NCBI RefSeq assembly: GCF_009696265.1 | Contig: NZ_VUMH01000011.1 | Span: forward strand, 62,001 to 126,000 | Direction of reading: 5' to 3' | Source of the DNA: Desulfovibrio porci | Lineage (GTDB): Bacteria; Desulfobacterota; Desulfovibrionia; Desulfovibrionales; Desulfovibrionaceae | Length of the DNA stretch: 64,000 bases | Part shown: one piece after another, positions 1,070-36,506 of the stretch | Numbering within the stretch: the first letter of the stretch is position 1 | Layout of the letters: each line of letters begins with the position of its first letter | Translations under genes and position numbers: made by a program | Notes under the pieces: model-generated | The model's database searches: none | What the model was told of the DNA's origin: nothing | What the model saw: the letters and a program-made list of their open reading frames with translations, nothing else

Positions 1070-2797
1070 ATGAATGCGGACTACAAAGTGGATTTGCTGG
1101 TGCTGGGCATGGGCGCGGCGGCGCAACTGGCCGCCATTTACGCTCATGACGCAGACCCGGACCTGAACATCCTCATCGCCACCAAGGCGCTGAAAGGCAA
1201 GGGCGGATGCAGCCGCATGGTTCAGGGCGGCTTCAATGTGGTGCTTGACCCCGGCGATTCCCATGAAAAACACCTCATGGATACGCTCAAGGGCGGCCAG
1301 TACATCAATGATCAGGATCTGGCCCTGGCTCTGGTGGAACAGGCCACGCCCACGGTCAAGGAACTGGAAACCGTCTGCGGCTGCTTTTTCGACCGCCGCC
1401 CGGACGGGCACATCCATCAGAAAGCCTTTGCCGGGCAGTGTTTCGACCGCACGGTGCACAAAGGCGACCTGACGGGCATCGAAATCATCAGCCGCACCAC
1501 GGAACAGATCTTCAAGCGCCGGATTCCGGTGCTGGAAGAAACCCGCGCCGTGGAACTGCTGCTGGACGCCGAGGGAAACACGGTCACCGGCGCGCTGCTC
1601 TACAATATGCGCAGCGGCGCATTCGTCACCGTGGAGGCCGCGGCCACTCTGGTGGCCACGGGCGGCGGCCCCACCCAGTACCGCTTCCACGCCCCCGGCC
1701 CGGAAAAATCCGCGGACGGCATCGCCATGCTGTACCGGGCGGGCGCGCTGATGCGCGACATGGAAATGATCCAGTTCCATCCCACGGGCCTGATCATTCC
1801 CGGCAGCGTGGTGGCCGGGGCTCTGCTGGAAGAAGGCCTGCGCGGCGCGGGAGCCCACCTCTACAACGGCGAGGGCGAGCGCTACATGCTCAAATACGCG
1901 CCGGACGTGGCCGAACGCGCCACGCGCGACGTGGTCAGTCGTTCCGCCTACCTGGAAATGATGGCCGGGCGCGCCTGTCCCGAAGGCGGTGTGCGCATTG
2001 ACGCGGCCCACCTCGGCGCGGACTTCGTGCTCAAAAGCTTCCCCGGCATGGCCGAGCGTTGCGCCCAGTTCAAATATGATCTGGCCCACGGCATGGTGCC
2101 CGTGTCGCCCTCGGCCCACTTCTTCATGGGCGGGGCGGCCATCGGCGTGGACTGCCGGGCCTCTCTGGACAAGCTCTTCGTGGCCGGCGAGGACGCCGGC
2201 GGCGTGCACGGGGCCAACCGCCTGGGCGGCAACGGCATCGGCGAATCCTGCGTCTACGGCCGTCTGGCCGGCAAGTCCATCGCCGCCTATCTCTCCAGGC
2301 CGGAAAACCGCCGCATCAAGGACAGCGCGCCGGGCATGGCCAAGGAAGCCATGGCCCGCATCAGCGAACCGCTCAGCCGCAGGGGCGGCCCCTCGCCCTT
2401 CGACAACCGCCGTGAAATTCAGGAGACCAACTGGGTCAAGGTGGGCGTGGTGCGCAAGGAATCCGCCCTGGAAGAGGCTCTCACCGACTTCGCCGGACTG
2501 CGCCGGGATGTGGAGCGGGCCAGCGTGAGCGGGCGACAGGCCTACAACATGCAGTTCAACACCCATCTGGACACCCTGAACATGATCGACGTTTCCGTCA
2601 TGGCCGCCACTTCCGCGCTGCAGCGCCAGGAAACCAGAGGCGCGCACACCCGCGAGGATTTCCCCGGGCAGCGCGACGACTACGGCCTGTTCAACACCTT
2701 CATGTGGCGCGGCGAGGACGGCCTGCCGGTCTTTGAAAAGCGGGAAGTGGTCTTCAGGCACAAGTCGCTTGAGGCCTGTCAGAAGCACAAAAAATAA
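1070..2797 (+). CDS. frdA: Fumarate reductase/succinate dehydrogenase-type flavoprotein subunit
   Basis: 575 residues, the size of FrdA/SdhA. An N-terminal FAD-binding fold (VLGMGAAA, residues 11-18, with Ala in place of the third Gly) is followed by the catalytic signatures: FHPTG (~235), LLEEGLRG (~253), RDVVSRS (~286, with the proton-shuttle Arg), SAHFFMGG (~349) and HGANRLGGN (~380). The residues that bind and reduce fumarate or oxidise succinate are therefore present. Next to QGG (52-54), where SdhA/FrdA carry the His that binds FAD covalently, this protein has Cys-Ser-Arg, so FAD may be held non-covalently as in L-aspartate oxidase. The neighbouring FeS and haem-b subunits argue for a membrane-bound fumarate reductase/succinate dehydrogenase rather than NadB. 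An AGGGG ribosome site supports the ATG at 1070. The product acts in the cytoplasm, docked to the membrane. Confidence 0.85.
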   Translation: MNADYKVDLLVLGMGAAAQLAAIYAHDADPDLNILIATKALKGKGGCSRMVQGGFNVVLDPGDSHEKHLMDTLKGGQYINDQDLALALVEQATPTVKELETVCGCFFDRRPDGHIHQKAFAGQCFDRTVHKGDLTGIEIISRTTEQIFKRRIPVLEETRAVELLLDAEGNTVTGALLYNMRSGAFVTVEAAATLVATGGGPTQYRFHAPGPEKSADGIAMLYRAGALMRDMEMIQFHPTGLIIPGSVVAGALLEEGLRGAGAHLYNGEGERYMLKYAPDVAERATRDVVSRSAYLEMMAGRACPEGGVRIDAAHLGADFVLKSFPGMAERCAQFKYDLAHGMVPVSPSAHFFMGGAAIGVDCRASLDKLFVAGEDAGGVHGANRLGGNGIGESCVYGRLAGKSIAAYLSRPENRRIKDSAPGMAKEAMARISEPLSRRGGPSPFDNRREIQETNWVKVGVVRKESALEEALTDFAGLRRDVERASVSGRQAYNMQFNTHLDTLNMIDVSVMAATSALQRQETRGAHTREDFPGQRDDYGLFNTFMWRGEDGLPVFEKREVVFRHKSLEACQKHKK

Positions 2798-2826
2798 GGT
2801 TCCACACGCAAACAATGGGGGAAATG

Positions 2827-3165
2827 ATGAATACGCCCGAACTTGACTACAGAAAACCCATGCAATGGGGAGAAATCGATCCGTACCGGCGCGGGCGCGC
2901 GCATGTGGGCATGTGGGCCTGGCTGCTGCAACGCGTCAGCGCCGTCTTTATCGTGCTGCTGCTGATCCTGCACCTCTGCTTCACCTACAAGCCCTATGTC
3001 CAGTTTCTTCTGCTGCTGGCCGTAACCCTGCACGCCTCGCTGGGCATCCGCGTCATCCTGCTGGACTTCAACCTCGCCAAGATATGTTCCGCGCGCCGCC
3101 TGGTGCCCTGGACGCTGGGCCTGGGGCTTACCGCCGCGCTGATCGCATGGTTCGCCATCTATTAA
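2827..3165 (+). CDS. Small haem-b membrane anchor, SdhC/SdhD-like
   Basis: About 112 residues with three hydrophobic helices. The first carries LLQRVSAVF and a following LHLCF; the second carries LHASLGIRV. Both match SdhC/SdhD-type anchors, where such His residues ligate haem b and the Arg/Ser line the quinone site. A single small three-helix anchor would have to form a dimer or pair with the cytochrome b encoded downstream. An ATG at 2815 lies in frame, but a GGGGGA ribosome site (2817-2822) points to 2827 (or 2824). It sits between the flavoprotein and iron-sulfur genes, the usual place for the anchor of a fumarate reductase or succinate dehydrogenase. Confidence 0.75.
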   Translation: MNTPELDYRKPMQWGEIDPYRRGRAHVGMWAWLLQRVSAVFIVLLLILHLCFTYKPYVQFLLLLAVTLHASLGIRVILLDFNLAKICSARRLVPWTLGLGLTAALIAWFAIY

Positions 3166-3177
3166 ACGGAGGACGCC

Positions 3178-4515
3178 ATGCAATCTTCAAGCAATACGCG
3201 CACAGTAAGGATATTCCGCTATGACCCGGAAAAGGGCGGGGAAGGGAGTTTCCTGAGCTACACTCTGGATATACCCGATCCCGACACCACCACCATTCTG
3301 GACGTGCTGCTGCGCATTCAGAAAGAACAGGATCCGAGCATCGCCTTCCGTTTCGCCTGCCGCGTGAACATGTGCGGCTCCTGCGGCATGGTCATCAACG
3401 GGCGCGAGGGCCTGGCCTGCAAAACCAACGTCTGCGACCTGCCCGCCGGGCAGGACATCACCCTGCGGCCCCTGAACCATTTTCCCGTCATCAAGGATCT
3501 GGTGGTGGACATGGGACCGTTTTTCGCCAAGTACGAAGACGCCCTGCCCTTCTTCGAGCCCAGGGAAAAACGCGACGAGCCCTACGTCATCAAGCCGGAC
3601 GACCAGAACCGTGTGGACATCGGCATGGCCACGGACTGCATCGCCTGCGGCTGCTGCGTGTCGAGCTGCACCATGGTGGACAGCCACGAGGGCTATTGCG
3701 GCCCGGCGGCCCTGAACCGCGCCTTCACCCTGCTGGCCGACGAACGCGACGCGCTCTTCGAGGCCCGCCTGACCAAGGCCCTGGACAGCTGCTACAACTG
3801 CCGCACCGAATTCAACTGCACGGAAGTCTGTCCCAAATCCATCAGCGGCACGCGGGCCATCAAGTACATCCAGCGCCTGGCCCTGAAAAACCTCAAGGCC
3901 GTCAAGCCCCTGCCGCCCCATCCCGCCGAGCTGGCCGGGCAAGAAGCGGCGGAAAAAAGCGCTCCGGCCCCGGCGGGCCAGGTGGAAACGGCAGCGGAAG
4001 CGCGGAGCGGCCGTACCGCTGAAAACACACGGCCCTGCGCCTGCTACGCGTCCGACGCCTCCCGCCGTTCCTTCCTCAAGGGCGCCGGCGGCCTGGTGGG
4101 CGCGGGCATCGTGGTTTCTCTGGGCGCGGTGCTGGGCGTCAGCGCCGTGGGCCCCACGCTGGGAAATCAGCCCAGCCAATGGGTGAACGCCGGGCCGGAA
4201 AAGGACTTCCCGGTGGGCGGCATCACCAGCGTGACCCTGCATTACAAACGCAGTCAGGCTTTCCACTCCGAGGAAAAGGAAGTGCCCGTGCTGGTGCGCC
4301 GCGATTCGGAACAGGATTTCATCTGTTTCAGCAGCAGTTGCCCGCATCTGGGCTGCGCCGTGAGCTGGGACGAGCTTTCCCGGCGCTTCAAGTGCGCCTG
4401 CCATGGCGGAGCGTTCGACCGGGACGGCAAGGTCATCGCCGGTCCGCCGCCGTCGCCTCTGCCTCGGCTGCCCTGGAAGCTGGAAAACGGCATTCTTAAG
4501 GTGGAGGTAGTCTAA
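3178..4515 (+). CDS. FrdB/SdhB iron-sulfur subunit fused to a Tat-anchored Rieske protein
   Basis: 445 residues in one open frame. Residues 1-240 form an FrdB/SdhB subunit: [2Fe-2S] ligands Cys61, 66, 69 and 81 (C-x4-C-x2-C-x11-C), then Cys154, 157, 160 and 164 and Cys208, 214 and 218 for the [4Fe-4S] and [3Fe-4S] clusters. A Pro/Ala-rich linker (241-290) leads to a twin-arginine motif SRRSFLK (295-301) and one hydrophobic helix (~302-325). Residues 330-445 are a Rieske domain: Cys388-x-His390-xx-Cys393 and Cys406-x-Cys408-His409. If the Tat motif works internally, the FrdB half stays in the cytoplasm and the Rieske half crosses to the periplasm. GGAGG precedes the ATG. The stop overlaps the next start (TAATG), implying coupled translation with the cytochrome b. 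I know of no standard family with this fusion. Confidence 0.88.
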   Translation: MQSSSNTRTVRIFRYDPEKGGEGSFLSYTLDIPDPDTTTILDVLLRIQKEQDPSIAFRFACRVNMCGSCGMVINGREGLACKTNVCDLPAGQDITLRPLNHFPVIKDLVVDMGPFFAKYEDALPFFEPREKRDEPYVIKPDDQNRVDIGMATDCIACGCCVSSCTMVDSHEGYCGPAALNRAFTLLADERDALFEARLTKALDSCYNCRTEFNCTEVCPKSISGTRAIKYIQRLALKNLKAVKPLPPHPAELAGQEAAEKSAPAPAGQVETAAEARSGRTAENTRPCACYASDASRRSFLKGAGGLVGAGIVVSLGAVLGVSAVGPTLGNQPSQWVNAGPEKDFPVGGITSVTLHYKRSQAFHSEEKEVPVLVRRDSEQDFICFSSSCPHLGCAVSWDELSRRFKCACHGGAFDRDGKVIAGPPPSPLPRLPWKLENGILKVEVV

Positions 4516-5975
4516 TGAGCTTCCGGAACGACATCGGCTGGGACAAGCATCTCAAGCCCTTCCTGTACAAAAGGCTGCCGGACCGCACCGGCTGGAGCGC
4601 CGTGCTGGGCACGCTCTGCGCGCTGACCTTCATTGTCCTGGTGGTGACCGGCATGATTCTGGCCTTCTATTATGTGCCGTCGCCGGACAAGGCCTGGGAT
4701 TCCGTGCAATACATCAGCAATGACGTGCCCCTGGGCAATATCCTGCGCGGGCTGCACCACTGGGGCGCGGGCCTGATGGTCTTTCTGGTCTTCTGTCATC
4801 TGATGGTGACCTATATGCACGGCTCCTACGCCAAGCCGCGCCAGCTTACCTGGCTCACCGGCGTCTGCCTCTTTCTGGTCACCCTGGGCCTGGGCTTCAC
4901 CGGCTATCTGCTGCCCTGGGACATGAAAGCCTACTGGGCCACGGTGGTCGGGGCCAACATTCCCAACCAGTACCCCGGCGTGGGCAATTACATCACCCGC
5001 TTCATTCTGGGCGGCAACGACATCTCTGGCTTCACGCTCTCACGCTTCTATTCCGTGCATACCCTGATTCTGCCCGCCTGTCTGCTGCTGCTCATGGCCG
5101 TGCACATCTATCTGATTCGCATCCACAACATCTCGGACCCGCGCGAGCGCCTGGCAGGCGAGATTCTGCCGCCTTCCGACGGCAAGCCCTACCGCTTCTA
5201 CCCCGAGCATATCAACCGCACCACCCTGGCCTTCGGCCTCGTCTTCGCGGGTCTGCTGCTGCTGGCCCACTACGCGCCGCCGCATATGGAAGCCAGGGCC
5301 GGCACCTTCATTCCCGACTATCTGCCCCGGCCCGAGTGGTACTATATGTGGCTCTTCCAGCTGCTGACCTACTTCACCGGCTCCTGGGAGATGATCGGCA
5401 GCCTCTTTCTTTTCGGCGGCGGCCTCGTCATGCTCTTCGGCGTGCCCTTTTTCAGCGAAAGCAGGCTCAAGGGCGTGGGCAACAGGCCCGTGTCCCTGGC
5501 CGTGGCCGTCACCTTTATGGTCTGCATCGTCTATCTCACGCTCATGGCCTACTCCGAGGCCGCTCCCTACAACAAGTTCCTGACGCTGCCGGACAAGCCC
5601 ATGAGCGAACAGGCCCGGCGCGGCATGTTCCTCTATGCGGAGCGCGAATGCTCCTACTGCCACAACATCATGGGCAAGGGCGGCCACCGCACCGGGCCGG
5701 ACATGAGCAACATGGTCAGAAAAGGCAGAAGCGAACAGTATCTGGCGGACTACATCAAAAATCCGCTCAAGGTCTACTCTTCGTCCACCATGCCGGCCTA
5801 TGACCTGACGCCCGAACAGCTCAAGGACATGGCGGCCTTCCTGCTATCCCTGGATTTCAGGGGCGTGAAGCCCGTGGCGAAGCCGGTCAGCGAAATTCTC
5901 GGGACGAAAAAATCCGGGCAGACCGGGCACGCGCAGCAACCGGACGCCGACGCGGCTGCCGCGTCCGGCTCCTAA
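4515..5975 (+). CDS. Cytochrome b (b6/petD-like) fused to a monohaem cytochrome c
   Basis: 486 residues. The N-terminal part is a cytochrome b: haem ligands His81/His95 in one helix and His182/His197 in another (14 residues between the second pair, as in b6 and epsilon-type cytochromes b), then a subunit-IV part with the PEWY quinol-oxidation motif at 273-276. After about eight helices comes a C-terminal cytochrome c domain with CSYCH (379-383) and a probable Met ligand in STMPAY (Met426). This is the core of a quinol:cytochrome c oxidoreductase without a separate cytochrome c1. Together with the Rieske fusion just upstream it gives a complete bc-type complex whose Rieske subunit is covalently tied to a fumarate reductase/succinate dehydrogenase subunit. 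The start overlaps the previous stop by one base. Confidence 0.9.
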   Translation: MSFRNDIGWDKHLKPFLYKRLPDRTGWSAVLGTLCALTFIVLVVTGMILAFYYVPSPDKAWDSVQYISNDVPLGNILRGLHHWGAGLMVFLVFCHLMVTYMHGSYAKPRQLTWLTGVCLFLVTLGLGFTGYLLPWDMKAYWATVVGANIPNQYPGVGNYITRFILGGNDISGFTLSRFYSVHTLILPACLLLLMAVHIYLIRIHNISDPRERLAGEILPPSDGKPYRFYPEHINRTTLAFGLVFAGLLLLAHYAPPHMEARAGTFIPDYLPRPEWYYMWLFQLLTYFTGSWEMIGSLFLFGGGLVMLFGVPFFSESRLKGVGNRPVSLAVAVTFMVCIVYLTLMAYSEAAPYNKFLTLPDKPMSEQARRGMFLYAERECSYCHNIMGKGGHRTGPDMSNMVRKGRSEQYLADYIKNPLKVYSSSTMPAYDLTPEQLKDMAAFLLSLDFRGVKPVAKPVSEILGTKKSGQTGHAQQPDADAAAASGS

Positions 5976-5988
5976 GGAGGAACTCTGT

Positions 5989-6870
5989 ATGGATACCTTT
6001 GATTACGCCATCGTGGAAGAAGCGGCCAAGCAATGCTACATCAAGGCGCTCTGCGACCTGCCGCCCGACGTGCGCGCGGCCCTGAAAAAGGCCTATGACA
6101 GGGAAACCAAGCCCGCTGCCCGCAGCGTTTTCGAGGCCATGTTCAAGGCCATTGAAATCGCGGACAGCAAGAAGACCCTGCTCTGCCAGGACACGGGCCT
6201 GCCCATCTACAAGGTGCGCATCGGTTCGGCCTACGCCTGGAACGGCGCGAAAATCAAGGCCGCCCTCTATGAAGGGGCCAAGCGCGCCACGCAGGAATTC
6301 CCCTTCCGCAGCAGCTCCACCCACACCATCACCCGGGTCAATCCCCAGACCTCGGTAGGGCCCGGCCTGCCCGTGACCTACTTCGACTTTGACGGGGACA
6401 GCGCGAATCTGGACATTCTGATGGTTCCCAAGGGCTCCGGCTCGGAGAACATGAGCCAGATGAAAATGTTCTACCCGCAGCACGGCATCAAGGCCGTGAA
6501 GAAATTCATTCTGGACGCGGTCATTGAAAGCGGCGCCAATCCCTGCCCTCCGGGCATCATCGGCGTGGGTCTGGGCGGCACCGCCGACCTGGTCATGAAA
6601 CTGGCCAAAGACGCCATCGCCCGGCCCGTGGGCCAGCGCAACCCCGACCCCATGCTGGCCGAAATGGAAGAGGAGCTGGAAGAGGCCATCAACGCCACGG
6701 GGCGCGGCCCCATGGGTCTGGGCGGCGACGTGTCCTGTCTGGCCGTGCACATCGAGAGCGCCTACACCCACATCACCCAGAACCCCGTGGCCGTGAACAC
6801 CCAGTGCTGGCCCGCGCGCCGGGCCCGCGCCGTCATCACGCCCGCCGGCGAAGTGGCCTACGGATATTAA
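5989..6870 (+). CDS. Class I fumarase / L-tartrate dehydratase, alpha subunit
   Basis: 293 residues, the size of the separate alpha subunit of two-subunit class I (4Fe-4S) fumarases and of TtdA. Signatures: LLCQDTGLP (~63-71), GSGSEN (~150), NPCPPGIIGVG (~184), TGRGPMGLGG (~234) and QCWPARRA near the end; the three Cys are the likely cluster ligands. The reaction is reversible (de)hydration of a C4 hydroxy acid: malate/fumarate, or tartrate to oxaloacetate. The sequence alone does not separate the two, but following a fumarate reductase module favours fumarase. A strong AAGGAGGA ribosome site stands before the ATG. It is probably co-transcribed with the redox genes, as the gap to the cytochrome b gene is 13 nt. 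Confidence 0.85.
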   Translation: MDTFDYAIVEEAAKQCYIKALCDLPPDVRAALKKAYDRETKPAARSVFEAMFKAIEIADSKKTLLCQDTGLPIYKVRIGSAYAWNGAKIKAALYEGAKRATQEFPFRSSSTHTITRVNPQTSVGPGLPVTYFDFDGDSANLDILMVPKGSGSENMSQMKMFYPQHGIKAVKKFILDAVIESGANPCPPGIIGVGLGGTADLVMKLAKDAIARPVGQRNPDPMLAEMEEELEEAINATGRGPMGLGGDVSCLAVHIESAYTHITQNPVAVNTQCWPARRARAVITPAGEVAYGY

Positions 6871-6880
6871 GGAGGCAGCC

Positions 6881-7474
6881 ATGAGCAAAATCCACCATCT
6901 CGCGTCGCCTTTTTCCGAAGAGGTCATCCGGAGCCTGCACGCCGGGGACATCGTCTACTTTGACGGTCCGCTGTTCGGCATCCGCGATCTGACCCAGATC
7001 CATATTTTCGACCACAACAATCCCCCGCCGGTGAGCCTGGCGGGCATGCCCTGCATCCACACCGCGCCCAGCCTGCGCAAGAACGGCGACAAGTGGGAGA
7101 AAATCTGCGTGGGCACCACCACCAGCACGCGCATGGAGCGCTTCACGCCCGGACTCATCGGCCGGTACGGGGTGCGGGCCATCATCGGCAAGGGCGGCCT
7201 GTATCAGGACAGCCTGGAGGCCATGAAAAAATACGGCGCCGTGTACCTGGCCATTGTGGGCGGCGCGGCGGCCCTGGAAACCGAACAGATTGAAGAGGTG
7301 GAGCAGGTCTATTTCGAAGAGCTGCATCCCGAAGCCCTTTACCGCTTCCGGGTGAAAAACTTCGGACCACTGACCGTGGCCATGGACAGCCACGGCGTGC
7401 ATCTCTACGAGCGGGTCAATGAAAGCATCAAGGAAAAACTGCCCGGCATATACGCCAAACTCGGCGTGTTGTAG
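6881..7474 (+). CDS. Class I fumarase / L-tartrate dehydratase, beta subunit
   Basis: 197 residues, the size of the beta subunit. Contains GTTTSTRMERFTP (~79-91) and AIIGKGGLY (~105), the substrate-binding and catalytic signatures of the fumarase C-terminal domain, and a late DSHGVHLY in place of the commoner D-xx-G-x-SLY. It follows the alpha subunit by 10 nt with a GGAGG ribosome site, so a two-subunit enzyme is certain in form. Exact substrate (malate/fumarate, tartrate or a related hydroxy acid) is open. Cytoplasmic. Confidence 0.85.
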   Translation: MSKIHHLASPFSEEVIRSLHAGDIVYFDGPLFGIRDLTQIHIFDHNNPPPVSLAGMPCIHTAPSLRKNGDKWEKICVGTTTSTRMERFTPGLIGRYGVRAIIGKGGLYQDSLEAMKKYGAVYLAIVGGAAALETEQIEEVEQVYFEELHPEALYRFRVKNFGPLTVAMDSHGVHLYERVNESIKEKLPGIYAKLGVL

Positions 7475-7565
7475 GCAGAGATCCATGCCCGCCGGCCAGG
7501 GCGGATATCTCCCGAACAGCGGCATGCGTATCGGCCGGAGCATGCGCAACCTTTTTGGAGGACAT

Positions 7566-7850
7566 ATGGGCGTTGATTTTGTTGTTCACGAAAAAGGCGA
7601 CGGCGTGGGCGTTGTGGTCGTGGAAGGCCTGAAAAAGGGGCAGGAATGCACCGGCTGGATCATGCAGGAGGACGAGTTGATCACCTTCAAGATCCTGGAC
7701 GACATCCCCATCGGCCATAAGGTGGCCCTGCACAATTTCGCAGTCAACGACACGGTCATCAAATACGGCACGGACATCGGCAAGGTGGTGCAGCCCATCA
7801 AACAGGGCGAACACCTGCATGTGCACAACGTCAAAACCAAGAGGTGGTAG
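7566..7850 (+). CDS. UxaA-family lyase small subunit (SAF domain), possibly SuyA-like
   Basis: 94 residues, a stand-alone SAF domain. DDIPIGHKVAL and EHLHVHN are the recognisable SAF/UxaA N-terminal motifs. The open frame reaches further upstream, but GGAG at 7557 before the ATG at 7566 sets the start. It forms a split enzyme with the gene starting at 7854. Families with this split organisation include altronate dehydratases and (2R)-sulfolactate sulfo-lyase (SuyAB). The second subunit resembles my recollection of SuyB more than classical UxaA, so a sulfolactate-to-pyruvate-plus-sulfite role is possible but unproven. Confidence 0.75.
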   Translation: MGVDFVVHEKGDGVGVVVVEGLKKGQECTGWIMQEDELITFKILDDIPIGHKVALHNFAVNDTVIKYGTDIGKVVQPIKQGEHLHVHNVKTKRW

Positions 7851-7853
7851 AAC

Positions 7854-9014
7854 ATGAATAGGAAATTCTGGGGTTACAGAAGAGAAAACGGCCGTGTGGG
7901 CATCCGCAACCACGTCATTCTGCTGCCTCTGGACGATCTGTCCAACGCGGCCTGCCAGGCGGTGGCCAACAACATCAAGGGCACTCTGGCCCTGCCGCAC
8001 CATTACGGCCGCCTGCAGTTCGGCGAAGATCTGGACCTGCATTTCAGAACCCTGATCGGCGCGGGCTGCAACCCCAATGTGGCCGCCGTGGTGGTCATCG
8101 GCATCGAGCCGGTCTGGACGCAGCAGATCGTGGACGGCATCGCCAAAACCGGCAAACCCGTGGCCGGATTCTCCATTGAAAAAAACGGCGACCTGAACAC
8201 CATTGCCGCGGCTTCCCGCAAGGCCAAGGAATTCCTCCAGCAGGTCACCGATTACCAGCGCGTGGAATGCGACATCAAGGAACTCTGGGTCTCCACCAAG
8301 TGCGGCGAATCGGACACCACCTCGGGCATCGCCTCCAATCCCACGGTGGGCAACGCCTTTGACAAACTCTGGGAAGCCGGGGCCACCACCCTGTTCGGCG
8401 AAACCACGGAAATCACCGGCGGCGAGCATCTGGTGGCCGCGCGCTGCATCAACGAGGACGTGAAGAAAAAGTTCATGTACTTTTTCGACCGCTACGCCAA
8501 GGTGGTGGACGACCACAAAACCAACGACCTCTGCGACTCCCAGCCCACCAAGGGCAATATCGAGGGCGGGCTGACCACCATTGAGGAAAAGGCCCTGGGC
8601 AACATCCAGAAAATCGGCCGCAAAGCGCCGGTGACGGGCTGCCTGGACAAGGCCGAAAGCCCCACCGGGCCGGGCCTCTGGTTCATGGATTCCTCGTCCG
8701 CCGCGGCGGAAATGGTCACTCTGGCGGCGGCCTCCGGCTTTGTGGTCCACTTCTTCCCCACAGGCCAGGGCAACGTCATCGGCAATCCCATTCTGCCGGT
8801 CATCAAACTGTCGGCCAATCCGCGCACCGTGCGCACCATGAGCGAACACATCGACGTGGACGTGACCGGCCTGCTTCAGCGTGAATATGACCTGAACGCG
8901 GCGGGCGACAAACTGCTGGACATGATGATCCGCACCTGCAACGGCCGCAATACCAGCGCCGAAGCTCTGGGTCATCGCGAATTCGTCATGACGCGCCTGT
9001 ACGAAAGCGCCTGA
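7854..9014 (+). CDS. UxaA-family lyase large subunit, possibly SuyB-like
   Basis: 386 residues, covering the catalytic part of the altronate/galactarate dehydratase family. [10 protein letters not shown] (~10-19) and [17 protein letters not shown] (~237) are family hallmarks. Classical UxaA has NPSPGN and an FTTGRGS stretch; here these read SQPTKGN and FPTGQGN, and MDSSSAAAE replaces MDTPGYD. That pattern fits the sulfolactate sulfo-lyase branch or an uncharacterised relative. The family is iron-dependent. It starts 3 nt after the small subunit, with GAGGTGG inside that gene as ribosome site. It would remove water or sulfite from a 2-hydroxy acid imported by a transporter. Confidence 0.72.
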
Positions 9015-12347: not shown

Positions 12348-13892
12348 TTAACTAATTGTTGTGGAACCGAAAAACTCTTGTAATGGAGCAGCGTCGTGAG
12401 CCTGTTGCGGGACATCCAACATCACGGCCCTGTTTTTCCCGCCTTTTTTAGCCTCATATAAAGCCTTATCGGCAATCTGAATACATTCAGTGAGGGAAAC
12501 GTCAACCGTACTTGGCATATGACACATGCCGACGCTGACTGTCACCACACCGCCGTCAGCGTTCGGCAATGCTTCATTCTCCACCATGCGGCAAATCTTA
12601 TCGCCCAATTCCAAAGTAAGCTTGCGTTCAACCAAAAAGACGACAGCAATAAATTCTTCGCCGCCATAGCGTATGACATAGCTGTTATAGCCATCAAAAG
12701 CTTTTTTAAGCGTAGCGGCTATCTGGCGCAGGCAGTCATCACCTTTCAGATGTCCATAAAAGTCATTATATTTTTTGAAGTTATCAATATCGAGCATGAA
12801 AAGCGCCGCCTGCCCGGAGGCTCTGACAGGGTACTTCCAGACTTCGGCCAGACCGGTTTCAATGAAACGGCGGTTCAGCAAACCGGTGAGAGCGTCATGA
12901 TTGGCGATGATTTCCAGTTTTTTATTGATTTCAGCGCTTTTTTTCATACTGGAAATAATCCAGTAGATAATCAATACCGTGAGCAGAAGCACCACGGCAA
13001 GGCAAATTTTTAACGTGGGCCCCCCGGAGATGGACGTAAAAAAAACGGATTGCGTCATGGCGGCAAGTTCTTCTTCCCGTAAACCGCCGAACAACACCCA
13101 TCCTACGGATGGAATCGGTTCATAGATCACATAGACCAAGCCGTTTTTCCAAAAATACGTTCCAATTCCCTTTTCGCCGTCAAGGCCTTTTTGCTCCAGT
13201 TCCAGAATGGAACGCGTTACCGCATCCTCTTGCCCGCTGAGTATTTTTTTTGCATTATATTGTGAAGTGACCCATTCCATATGTCGCGGGTCACTGACCG
13301 CTATATCCGTACCCTCCGCATTGATAATATAGGATTCTCCCGTATTGATGAAGCGGATACTTTCAATCAGCCTGCAGAACGTATAACCGTTTTTTTCTAT
13401 ACTCAGCGCGCCCCTGATTTTTCCATTGCGTATCACCGGCGCGGAATAGCAGATCACAAATTCATGGCGCTCATTGAAATACGGCCCATAAACGGCGATT
13501 TTTCCGCCAAAGGCGGCACGGATATCCGGGCGGTCGTTTATAACTTGCTTTCGGCCATCAGAAGCGATGGTTTGCGTTTGCGTAACGTACACCATGCGCA
13601 CTGTATCCGGTCCGGGGAAAAATGGAATCGGGGTCCCGGCCGTATCAAAAAAAGCGGCGGACATTGCTGCTTCCTTGCGTCCTATTGCCAATTCGGACTC
13701 AACCCTGTCCACACCTTGCGCCACCATCGCCTGCACAAGTTTAATTGTATAATTAGCCAGAAGGGTCTGAAAATTTTGAGATAAGGTATAATATGCCGCA
13801 AAAATAATAATAATTACTGTAATCAGAAAAATAAACCCAACGCGTATTCCCAGGAATACAGCCTGATTTTTATCTCTGAATTTCATATCCAT
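12348..13892 (-). CDS. Membrane diguanylate cyclase with periplasmic Cache sensor
   Basis: 514 residues. A helix at ~11-30, a periplasmic region (~35-295) of Cache type, and a second helix (~300-318) lead to a GGDEF domain: DALTGLLNRRF (~338) and the active-site RYGGEEF (~418). It should make cyclic di-GMP in response to a periplasmic ligand. The residues in front of RYGGEEF lack the RxxD product-inhibition site. Base composition is clearly AT-richer than the flanking genes, with AAA/TTT-rich codons, which suggests later acquisition. ATGs at 13892 and 13886 are both possible; no strong ribosome site. It is convergent with larB. Confidence 0.9.
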   Translation of the reverse strand: MDMKFRDKNQAVFLGIRVGFIFLITVIIIIFAAYYTLSQNFQTLLANYTIKLVQAMVAQGVDRVESELAIGRKEAAMSAAFFDTAGTPIPFFPGPDTVRMVYVTQTQTIASDGRKQVINDRPDIRAAFGGKIAVYGPYFNERHEFVICYSAPVIRNGKIRGALSIEKNGYTFCRLIESIRFINTGESYIINAEGTDIAVSDPRHMEWVTSQYNAKKILSGQEDAVTRSILELEQKGLDGEKGIGTYFWKNGLVYVIYEPIPSVGWVLFGGLREEELAAMTQSVFFTSISGGPTLKICLAVVLLLTVLIIYWIISSMKKSAEINKKLEIIANHDALTGLLNRRFIETGLAEVWKYPVRASGQAALFMLDIDNFKKYNDFYGHLKGDDCLRQIAATLKKAFDGYNSYVIRYGGEEFIAVVFLVERKLTLELGDKICRMVENEALPNADGGVVTVSVGMCHMPSTVDVSLTECIQIADKALYEAKKGGKNRAVMLDVPQQAHDAAPLQEFFGSTTIS

Positions 13893-33985: not shown

Positions 33986-34915
33986 TCATGCGTTCGGCAG
34001 GTCCACGCCCAGACGCGCCAGCAGGTTTTGCAATTCCCCGGCGCTGGCGTAGGACAGGGTGATTTTTCCATTCTGCTCATTGCCGCTGACCAGCGCCTTG
34101 CAGGCTAAGGTTTGGCTGAGATTTTCCTGCAAGCTGCGGATTTGCGCACTTTTTTTGCGCCCCGTGCGGGCGCGCGGTTCTTTTTCGGTACGGGCTTCGC
34201 CCGGTGAGGCGTTTTCCGCCTGCCAGGGCAGGAGATGGTTTTCCCGCCAGAAGCTTGCGGCTTCCTCGGCATCACGCACGGTCAGCGCGTGGCTGATGAT
34301 ACGCCGGCGCAGCGCTTCGGCGGCTTCCGCATCCGTCACGCCCAGCAGGCAGCGGGCGTGCCCGGCGCTGATGTTTCCACCGCGCAGATCATCACGTGCG
34401 GCTTGGCTCAACTGCAGCAGACGCAGGGCATTGGCAATGGCCGGACGGCTTTTGCCGAGGCGCGCGGCCAGCTCCTCCTGGGTCAGCTCCAGCGCGTCGC
34501 GCAGGCCTTGCAGGGCCTGCGCCTCTTCAATGGGGTTGAGGTCTTCGCGTTGCAGGTTTTCGATCAGGGCGGCAGCCATAACCTCCTTGTCGCTCAACTC
34601 GCGCACGAAGACCGGCACCTGGGCCAGCCCGGCCAGGCGCGCGGCGCGCCAGCGGCGTTCACCGGCCACAATCTGGTAGGTTGTCCCGTCGCTCTGCGGG
34701 CGCACCAGCAGCGGTTGAATGATGCCCTGAGCTTTGATGGAGTCGGCCAGTTCCCGCAGACTTTCAGGGTCAAAATGCCGGCGCGGCTGGTCCGGATTGG
34801 GCCGCAATACCGTAAGCGGGAGCAGGCTGATGTCGCCCTTGGTTTCGCGTTGCGGTTCGGACCCGCCGAAAAGCGCGTCCAGGCCCCGCCCCAGACCCTT
34901 GTTTGCGTTGCTCAT
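33986..34915 (-). CDS. parB: Chromosome partitioning protein ParB
   Basis: 309 residues. Begins MSNANKGLGRGLDALFGG, the usual ParB N-terminus that contacts ParA; ENLQREDLNPIEEA and AGERRWRAARLAGL (~86, box II, CTP/arginine patch) and a central helix-turn-helix follow; residues ~225-255 form a variable linker and the end a dimerisation domain. It binds parS and spreads as a CTP-dependent clamp. GGAG precedes the ATG. Unusually, parA is not adjacent: an opposite-strand gene lies between. Confidence 0.95.
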   Translation of the reverse strand: MSNANKGLGRGLDALFGGSEPQRETKGDISLLPLTVLRPNPDQPRRHFDPESLRELADSIKAQGIIQPLLVRPQSDGTTYQIVAGERRWRAARLAGLAQVPVFVRELSDKEVMAAALIENLQREDLNPIEEAQALQGLRDALELTQEELAARLGKSRPAIANALRLLQLSQAARDDLRGGNISAGHARCLLGVTDAEAAEALRRRIISHALTVRDAEEAASFWRENHLLPWQAENASPGEARTEKEPRARTGRKKSAQIRSLQENLSQTLACKALVSGNEQNGKITLSYASAGELQNLLARLGVDLPNA

Positions 34916-35303
34916 GTCTTCTCCTTGTCGTGTTGCCCGCGCCTTGACAAGTGACCCCGTCGCGCGGCACGCTGCTCCAACCTGATTATTTTTGAAGGGC
35001 TGTGCGTTTCGAAAATTTGCTCAGCTGCAAGACGCGTCGGCGTTGTTGCCGATCACCATCAGCGGCACGCGTTTGGCTCTTTTGTCGTTAACGGCGCCTG
35101 TTCTTTGGGCTGTCTTAGGCCCTCAGGCTGAATCATTAACGCGCGGGGCATCTTCTGGCGGATAAGTGCACGCGTTTGGCGACAACAGAGTGCTTGCGCG
35201 TTTTGTTTCATTGTGTTTGCTACTGAAGTTCTCAACTCTAACCTGTTCCGGCGAGAGCGACTTTTAACTGTTCGCGACATTTTCTCAGCTGAAGGAATTT
35301 CTT
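34916..35303. other. Intergenic region between divergent parB and zinc-ribbon gene
   Basis: About 390 nt that should contain the promoters of parB (minus) and of the gene at 35304 (plus). A 73-codon minus-strand frame (35059-35280) has no ribosome site or family likeness and is not annotated. No parS, tRNA or strong terminator was found. Confidence 0.4.
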
Positions 35304-35705
35304 ATGTCAGATTCGTTGCAACTGCTTTATCTCACTGATGCCGACAAGCATGTCCAGGCTGTGCAGATTCCCTGGGAACTCTGGCGGAAAATCGAACCCC
35401 TGGCCCGGCCGGTGCTGGATTCTCTCATGAAACCGTCTTCTGAAGAGCCTGTTGAACCTCTTCCGGCTTTTGAGGAATTTTTGCACTACTGGGATTTCCG
35501 CTACCCCTACAGTCCGGCTGTGAACTGTCCGCATTGCGGCGCGGCCACGCAGAACTGGCGTGACGACCCGGCGCATCCTTTCCGCTTGACCAACGCCAAC
35601 CTGGGCGGCCTGCTGGTCTTTCATTGCCGGGCCTGTGGCGCGACAATCCGGCAGAAACATTTTCGTGACCATATGGCTGTGGAGCATACTGCACCCAAGG
35701 CCTGA
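35304..35705 (+). CDS. Zinc-ribbon protein of unknown function
   Basis: 133 residues, soluble. Residues ~73-125 contain CPHCG and CRACG pairs followed by a His-rich HFRDHMAVEH, a likely zinc-binding fold; the first 60 residues are acidic. AAGGA stands before the ATG. It lies between parA and parB on the opposite strand and converges on parA (12 nt apart). The function is unknown; a nucleic-acid or protein contact is suggested only by the zinc ribbon. Confidence 0.75.
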   Translation: MSDSLQLLYLTDADKHVQAVQIPWELWRKIEPLARPVLDSLMKPSSEEPVEPLPAFEEFLHYWDFRYPYSPAVNCPHCGAATQNWRDDPAHPFRLTNANLGGLLVFHCRACGATIRQKHFRDHMAVEHTAPKA

Positions 35706-35717
35706 CAGGTTAGCGCG

Positions 35718-36506
35718 TTATTGCAGCACGGTGCTCTTTTTGGAAGGCCGCCGCAGCACCACTTCCTTGGCGAGGCCCAGGTAAGCTTCCGCACCCTTGG
35801 ATTTGATGTCGTAATGGATAATGGATTTGCCGTGGCTGGGAGCTTCCGAAAGGCGCACATTGCGGGGGATGACCGTTTCAAACAAATGATCAGGGAAGCA
35901 ACGGCGCACTTCATTCTTTACTTCACGGGTGAGCCGGTTGCGGATGTCATACATGGTCAGCACCACACCGAGCAGCGCCAGATTGGGGTTGAGCCGTTTT
36001 TTAACCTGCTCGTAGGTCTGGAGCAATTTGACGATGCCTTCCAGGGCAAAAAATTCGCATTGCAGGGGAATCAGCAGTTCCGTGGCCGCGCAAAGGGCGT
36101 TGAGCGTCAGCAGGCCCAGTGAAGGCGGACAGTCCAGGATAATGTACTCGTAGTCGTCGTTGACCCGCTTGAGGCATTCGTCCAGGTAAAACTCGCGAGC
36201 CATTTTATCCACCAGTTCCAGTTCAACGGCGACAAGATTGGTGCTGGCCGGCAGGATATCCAGAAAGGGAGTACGGCTTTTGGCAATGCTCTGGCGTATA
36301 TTGTCCGGCGAGTAAAACGTGCTGTACAAGTCGCCGCTCAACTCTTCCTGGTTCAGGCCGAGGCCGCTGGTGCTGTTGGCCTGTGGATCGCAATCCACCA
36401 GTAGCACTTTTTTTTCCATAACGGCCAGGGCCGCGGAAAGATTGATGGCAGTCGTGGTTTTGCCCACCCCGCCTTTTTGATTGGCAATGGAAATGATGCG
36501 CGCCAT
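35718..36506 (-). CDS. parA: Chromosome partitioning ATPase ParA
   Basis: 262 residues. Deviant Walker A KGGVGKTTTAINL (~11), VDCDPQANSTSGLG (~40) and YIILDCPPSLG (~120) mark a ParA/Soj ATPase without an N-terminal DNA-binding domain. It moves ParB-parS complexes apart after replication. GGAGG precedes the ATG, and a parS-like site lies 87 nt upstream. Confidence 0.95.
   Translation of the reverse strand: MARIISIANQKGGVGKTTTAINLSAALAVMEKKVLLVDCDPQANSTSGLGLNQEELSGDLYSTFYSPDNIRQSIAKSRTPFLDILPASTNLVAVELELVDKMAREFYLDECLKRVNDDYEYIILDCPPSLGLLTLNALCAATELLIPLQCEFFALEGIVKLLQTYEQVKKRLNPNLALLGVVLTMYDIRNRLTREVKNEVRRCFPDHLFETVIPRNVRLSEAPSHGKSIIHYDIKSKGAEAYLGLAKEVVLRRPSKKSTVLQ

Follow-up and report, generated by a model that had tools for sequence, protein, structure and literature searches.

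The window analysed here, a stretch of 64,000 nucleotides from the 3.31-Mb draft genome of the sulfate reducer Desulfovibrio porci (contig NZ_VUMH01000011.1, positions 62,001 to 126,000; C11:62001-126000), begins with an operon for a fumarate reductase-type flavoprotein (FrdA), a membrane anchor, an iron-sulfur subunit (FrdB) fused to a Rieske domain, and a cytochrome b fused to a cytochrome c, followed by the alpha and beta subunits of a class-I fumarase. We propose that the first four products probably form one menaquinone-linked hybrid of complexes II and III, a succinate/fumarate:cytochrome c oxidoreductase, with the version found here (type 1) leaning towards fumarate. The genes are closely spaced, at 17, 12, -1 and 13 bp in gene order, the last spacer lying between the cytochrome b-c and fumarase genes. 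A first-pass annotation of the sequence had reported four consecutive genes at positions 1070-5975; our analysis places them at the same coordinates, and the Pfam domains agree with that description.

The FrdB-Rieske chain is a single reading frame of 445 amino acids (aa) with no internal stop, in which Pfam detects both Fer2_3 (1.5e-31, residues 9-116) and Rieske (3e-13, residues 358-431). FrdB has the ligand sets for all three iron-sulfur clusters of the complex II superfamily, assigned by homology to SdhB as [2Fe-2S] (C61, C66, C69 and C81), [4Fe-4S] (C154, C157, C160 and C218) and [3Fe-4S] (C164, C208 and C214), and the Rieske cluster motifs CxHxGC and CxCH are present. Across 18 aligned family members, the FrdB cluster cysteines, Arg296 and Arg297, and the Rieske ligands C388, H390, C406 and H409 (with C393 and C408) are invariant. 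An additional FrdB cysteine, Cys205 (window 3790-3792; SCYxCR), precedes a [3Fe-4S] ligand by three residues; all 18 aligned type-1 sequences have it, and a second subtype described below lacks it. Hydropathy predicts one transmembrane (TM) helix (residues 300-329) directly after the twin-arginine motif SRRSFLK; given this single hydrophobic helix following the motif, FrdB should remain cytoplasmic and the Rieske domain should be exported to the periplasm, like ordinary Rieske proteins that depend on twin-arginine translocation (Tat). The linker from FrdB to the Tat motif varies in length, from roughly 20 to 70 residues. In the Rieske motif CACHGG-x-F, Gly and Phe stand at the positions of Ser and Tyr in high-potential Rieske proteins; mutant work predicts a lowered potential for such a domain, as expected for menaquinol. 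The Rieske domain is well ordered in an AlphaFold2 (AF2) model.

The cytochrome b-c gene (4515-5975) encodes 486 aa, with Pfam matches to Cytochrome_B (1e-45), Cytochrom_B_C (2e-6) and Cytochrom_C (6e-8) in one chain. The first half of cytochrome b matches b6, and the four haem-b histidines and the PEWY motif of Rieske/cytochrome b complexes are present. H82, H95, H182, H197, PEWY, CxYCH and Met426 are conserved among relatives, with PDWY at one locus (L020). The cytochrome c domain is predicted to be periplasmic. The cluster ligands, haem-b His pairs, PEWY and CSYCH listed in the first-pass annotation are thus all in place, and alignments of relatives show them to be conserved.

A scan for relatives, restricted to one genome per species, yielded 22 loci with the fusion, one of which is cut by a contig end (L019) and another of which degenerates near its end (L015). 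FrdB and Rieske share one frame at all 22 independent loci, the chain never being broken between them, and at none of the 22 is this Rieske a separate subunit. The one-frame fusion is therefore borne out: we looked for a missed stop or frameshift between the two parts, and for chains that are separate in all relatives, and found neither. Carriers include Desulfovibrio (among them the isolate D. cuneatus DSM 11391), Solidesulfovibrio, Desulfotignum, Desulfocapsaceae and Desulfarculaceae, together with two Nitrospirota, one Acidobacteriota, one 'Sumerlaeota' metagenome-assembled genome and others (bin names as deposited). On every contig of sufficient length, the genes run consecutively as FrdA, anchor, FrdB-Rieske and cytochrome b-c, and 16 of the 22 loci also have fumarase genes alongside. 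The fusion occurs in 6 of 99 Desulfovibrionaceae genomes (one split over contigs) and, with both halves checked, in 7 of the 395 genomes sampled from the phylum (~2% of sampled species); in two other phyla sampled the counts were 1/246 and 1/199, each time the genome from which the search started. Some species of the genus are without the fusion, such that its distribution is patchy.

Features of the operon, in window coordinates
Feature	Position	Strand	Basis
FrdA-type flavoprotein, 575 aa	1070..2797	+	Pfam/NCBIfam, alignment
Membrane anchor (Sdh_cyt), 116 aa, three TM helices	2815..3165	+	Pfam, alignment to M. smegmatis SdhC
FrdB-Rieske fusion, whole chain, 445 aa	3178..4515	+	Pfam; one frame in 22/22 relatives
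FrdB part, residues 1-238	3178..3891	+	Invariant Cys columns; homology to SdhB
Internal twin-arginine motif SRRSFLK and single TM helix, residues 293-329, between both domains	4054..4164	+	Pfam TAT_signal (below cut-off), invariant RR, hydropathy
Rieske [2Fe-2S] domain, residues 333-445, CPHLGC...CACHGGAF, predicted periplasmic	4174..4512	+	Pfam, alignment, AF2
Cytochrome b part (b6 and subunit-IV-like, PEWY), two bis-His haems, ~7 TM helices	4515..5579	+	
C-terminal mono-haem cytochrome c domain, CSYCH at 5649-5663, axial Met426	5607..5852	+	
Class-I fumarase alpha	5989..6870	+	NCBIfam PRK06246/TIGR00723 over cut-off, synteny
Class-I fumarase beta	6881..7474	+	NCBIfam PRK06246/TIGR00723 over cut-off, synteny

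The flavin site and the membrane anchor

FrdA matches FAD_binding_2 (2e-64) and Succ_DH_flav_C (4e-23), and contains the catalytic motifs QFHPTG, EEGLRG, ERATRD, AHFFMGG and GANRLGGNG as well as the dicarboxylate-site His and Arg residues of the complex II superfamily. Its identity as an FrdA-type flavoprotein, proposed at first pass, is thus upheld by Pfam and motifs; what had been missed is that the His for covalent attachment of flavin adenine dinucleotide (FAD) is absent. Cys47 (codon 1208-1210) occupies this position, and the same replacement is seen in all 21 aligned type-1 FrdA sequences that cover the site, the window's included, none of which has the covalent 8-alpha-N-histidyl FAD site (His in SHTxxAQGG). 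Counted back from QGG, the type-1 flavin motif, GGCSRMVQGG, lines up with the SHSGEAQGG found in subtype 2. Histidyl attachment of this kind is typical of the complex II superfamily without being universal, and the FAD of type-1 FrdA is possibly non-covalent or cysteinyl. According to a review (PMC10238741), covalent attachment lifts the FAD potential by ~100 mV, and succinate oxidation depends on this; given the loss of the FAD-His, fumarate reduction would be favoured in type 1.

The anchor matches Sdh_cyt (9e-10), and its best structural matches, with weak scores, are SdhC and SdhD chains. Two of its histidines are invariant, His53 (codon 2971-2973) and His73 (codon 3031-3033), and in a profile alignment with SdhC of Mycobacterium smegmatis Sdh2 they fall on H47 and H87, respectively. 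In Sdh2, haem bD has the ligands C47/D65 and haem bP the ligands C87/D107 (PMC7447783). By this alignment, a single 3-TM anchor would supply two haems with only one ligand apiece, and a second anchor subunit would be needed for the others. Given that every operon has a single 3-TM anchor gene, the simplest prediction is a homodimeric anchor with two haems. None of the operons examined encodes a complex II-style anchor of two subunits or of one 5/6-helix subunit; canonical frdC genes elsewhere in the window's genome leave other anchor pairings formally possible. The 3-TM anchor also has no invariant Cys, and thus does not match the type F six-helix anchor with its Rieske-type cluster. The haem-b anchor of the first-pass annotation is accordingly confirmed with a correction: it is one 3-TM protein, whose two invariant histidines are predicted to be ligands of two different haems.

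Related operons and host genomes

A divergent second subtype is present in three genomes (G346, G475 and G938); where its gene order is visible on the contig, this runs FrdA, FrdB-Rieske, cytochrome b-c, anchor. We rejected an anchorless subtype 2 when the anchor gene was found after the cytochrome b-c gene. Subtype 2 FrdA retains the covalent-FAD His (seen in G475), and the G475 operon adjoins sucCD and 2-oxoacid oxidoreductase genes, which together suggest that subtype 2 more likely oxidises succinate. In two other genomes (G799, locus L102; G159, locus L103), the anchor, SdhA, SdhB, a Rieske protein and cytochrome b are encoded by separate, consecutive genes without a cytochrome c; the covalent-FAD His is present in these operons, and the anchor has the second His and not the first. 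Linkage of complexes II and III occurs, then, both fused and unfused, and the unfused operons are a possible forerunner of the fused complex. Type 1 forms one side of a branch in the trees of cytochrome b (99/98) and Rieske (94/86), and is not resolved in the FrdB tree (34/50), with two changes in the thinned tree. Separate origins of the type-1 and type-2 fusions are not shown: the approximately unbiased test does not reject a single clade of fusions for either FrdB (p 0.57) or cytochrome b (p 0.46).

Of 17 type-1 carriers tested, 15 have the gene dsrA: in 14 the match exceeds the family cut-off, and in G328 the gene is split into two pieces. The same test found no dsrA in the two type-2 carriers to which it was applied. 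In the window's genome we found dsrA and tetrahaem c3-type cytochromes and no haem-copper oxidase; haem-copper oxidase genes are present in 11 of 19 carriers. Two contigs of this genome have broken starts (G000 C11:1-700 and C21:1-700; L098 and L099) that carry similar canonical 5-TM frdC genes, both with a fumarase-like pair alongside; a repeat-induced assembly gap there probably hides the canonical frdAB. We have therefore withdrawn the suggestion that the operon encodes the only Frd/Sdh in the genome.

Assembly and direction of electron flow

Assembly of the four products into one complex is well supported by inference, since the fusion and gene order are kept across phyla, the predicted topology is coherent, and an unfused SdhA-SdhB-Rieske-cytochrome b operon exists. 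The first-pass proposal of one complex joining a cytoplasmic succinate/fumarate site to periplasmic cytochrome c gains support on the same grounds; the two roles it offered, reverse electron flow for succinate oxidation and delivery of periplasmic cytochrome electrons to fumarate, are inseparable by sequence. We infer the following topology, electron path and homodimeric anchor. FrdA and the FrdB part would lie at the cytoplasmic face, and the B chain would span the membrane once, placing the Rieske domain next to cytochrome b on the periplasmic side, where the cytochrome c domain at the C-terminus of cytochrome b would also lie; the anchor homodimer would carry a proximal and a distal haem b. 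The electron path would run from succinate/fumarate through FAD, the three iron-sulfur clusters and the anchor haems to menaquinone and the Qo site, where the Rieske cluster and haem bL would act, the second electron passing via bH to Qi; from Qo onward it would lead to the cytochrome c domain and then to a periplasmic cytochrome. The net reaction would be succinate + 2 cyt c(ox) = fumarate + 2 cyt c(red), with a Q-cycle linking it to the membrane potential.

For type 1, we slightly favour a net flow from periplasmic cytochromes and the menaquinol pool to fumarate. Besides the flavin site, we count towards this direction the fumarase in the operon, dsrA in the hosts, and the combination of c3-type cytochromes with no haem-copper oxidase in the window's genome. 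Only tentatively, at a little less than even chances, do we extend the proposal to an obligate class of complex II-III hybrids across several phyla, in which menaquinone would be passed within one assembly, the diheme anchor would be homodimeric, and Cys would replace the flavin His in type 1.

Several points weigh against a fumarate-leaning hybrid. Covalent fusion does not prove direct quinone hand-over, and Rieske/cytochrome b machinery normally oxidises quinol, making it a poor fit to a pure fumarate reductase. The AF2 model of the whole fusion is poor (predicted local distance difference test score, pLDDT, 62), so it was used for the Rieske fold alone. At the flavin site, the invariant Cys could itself hold FAD via an 8-alpha-S-cysteinyl bond, and Gln precedes GG in type-1 FrdA, as in succinate dehydrogenases (the comparison residue is Gln-A48; PMC7447783). 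Lastly, several type-1 carriers have haem-copper oxidases, such that forward flow to oxygen is possible in these.

A rival reading is that the same hybrid also runs forward in type 1, as a succinate dehydrogenase whose uphill reduction of menaquinone is pulled by electron transfer through Rieske/cytochrome b to periplasmic cytochrome c. Oxidase genes in over half of the carriers and the Gln before GG are consistent with this, as is the FAD-His of the unfused operons and of subtype 2, where it stands beside sucCD and 2-oxoacid oxidoreductase genes in G475. However, the FAD-His is gone from every type-1 sequence covering the site, and the window's genome is dsr-positive with no haem-copper oxidase found; we consider forward flow in type 1 unlikely, if a serious contender. 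An alternative possibility is that an ordinary quinol:fumarate reductase and an equally ordinary quinol:cytochrome c reductase share a chain for co-assembly or stoichiometry, each using the free menaquinone pool. Each half does retain its full ligands and quinone-site motifs, and the variable FrdB-Tat linker would suit such an arrangement, but fusion and four-gene linkage persist across phyla even though both modules occur separately in the same families, and the unfused versions retain the operon; two independent complexes are, we think, distinctly doubtful. Finally, it is very improbable that the fused frame arose from faulty assembly or annotation, or that FrdB is cleaved from Rieske after synthesis. 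Nothing in the sequence speaks for either, and the 22 one-frame loci come from independent assemblies, including the D. cuneatus isolate genome (L003), which rules out a frameshift or assembly artefact.

Genomic surroundings and known systems

Downstream of the fumarase genes lies a two-gene GD_AH/SAF enzyme (window 7554-9014; 98 and 386 aa), the sizes of which suit SuyAB (sulfolactate sulfo-lyase) or a split altronate-type dehydratase. The pair lies next to the operon here and, across phyla, in no fewer than 10 relatives, sometimes between the cytochrome b-c and fumarase genes, and its substrate may hint at physiology. A 514-aa open reading frame (ORF) at 12348-13892, with an N-terminal hydrophobic helix, coincides with a dip in GC content (48% vs ~62%; third-position GC 0.50) and was possibly acquired. 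Within 16272-36506, ORFs resembling dnaN (17873), gyrB (19112) and gyrA (22039) by eye, and ParB/ParA-like ORFs (33986-36506), raise the possibility that the window lies close to the replication origin.

Among the respirasome structures reported, only one contains complex II (PMC10238741). A natural covalent complex II-III would make three things testable: the handling of the succinate/fumarate couple with low-potential menaquinone, quinone channelling between complexes, and the way in which sulfate reducers connect C4-acid chemistry in the cytoplasm with their periplasmic cytochromes. The replacement of His by Cys at the flavin site amounts to a natural experiment on what covalent attachment of flavin contributes. 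If our wider proposal is true, the hybrid would be a previously undescribed class of respiratory enzyme, with direct succinate/fumarate:cytochrome c chemistry.

The best NCBIfam model for FrdA is TfrA, from the methanogen thiol:fumarate reductase TfrAB, although the score of 477 bits falls short of that model's cut-off of 718. TfrB has an HdrB-like C-terminal part, and TfrAB is without membrane subunits, whereas here the C-terminal part is Rieske, the TfrB model covers only residues 9-240, and a cytochrome b is added. Diheme complex II enzymes (M. smegmatis Sdh2, 6LUM; D. gigas quinol:fumarate reductase, 5XMJ) have in common with the hybrid the FrdA motifs, three iron-sulfur clusters and an SdhC-like anchor with both haem-ligand positions; here, by contrast, the B subunit extends into a TM helix and Rieske domain, Cys replaces the FAD-His, one 3-TM anchor gene takes the place of SdhC and SdhD or a 5-TM FrdC, and the operon includes cytochrome b-c. 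With the Rieske/cytochrome b complexes (bc1, b6f and separate Desulfobacterota pairs) it shares the Rieske ligands, two bis-His haems b, PEWY and a b6-like N-terminal half; it differs from them in that Rieske is the C-terminal domain of FrdB, and the cytochrome c, on the C-terminus of cytochrome b, is not cytochrome c1 or f. The type F Sdh1 of M. smegmatis (7D6V) is likewise a complex II with a Rieske-type cluster, but that cluster is in a six-helix membrane subunit (PMC10238741), whereas in the hybrid the B subunit bears a predicted periplasmic Rieske domain and cytochrome b is a separate chain. PMC10238741 and PMC7447783 summarise complex II types A-F, and the hybrid fits none of them. In the open-access literature, with subscription literature outside our search, we found no description of an FrdB-Rieske fusion or a complex II-III hybrid; the parts are known, and their hybrid is new as far as that literature shows.

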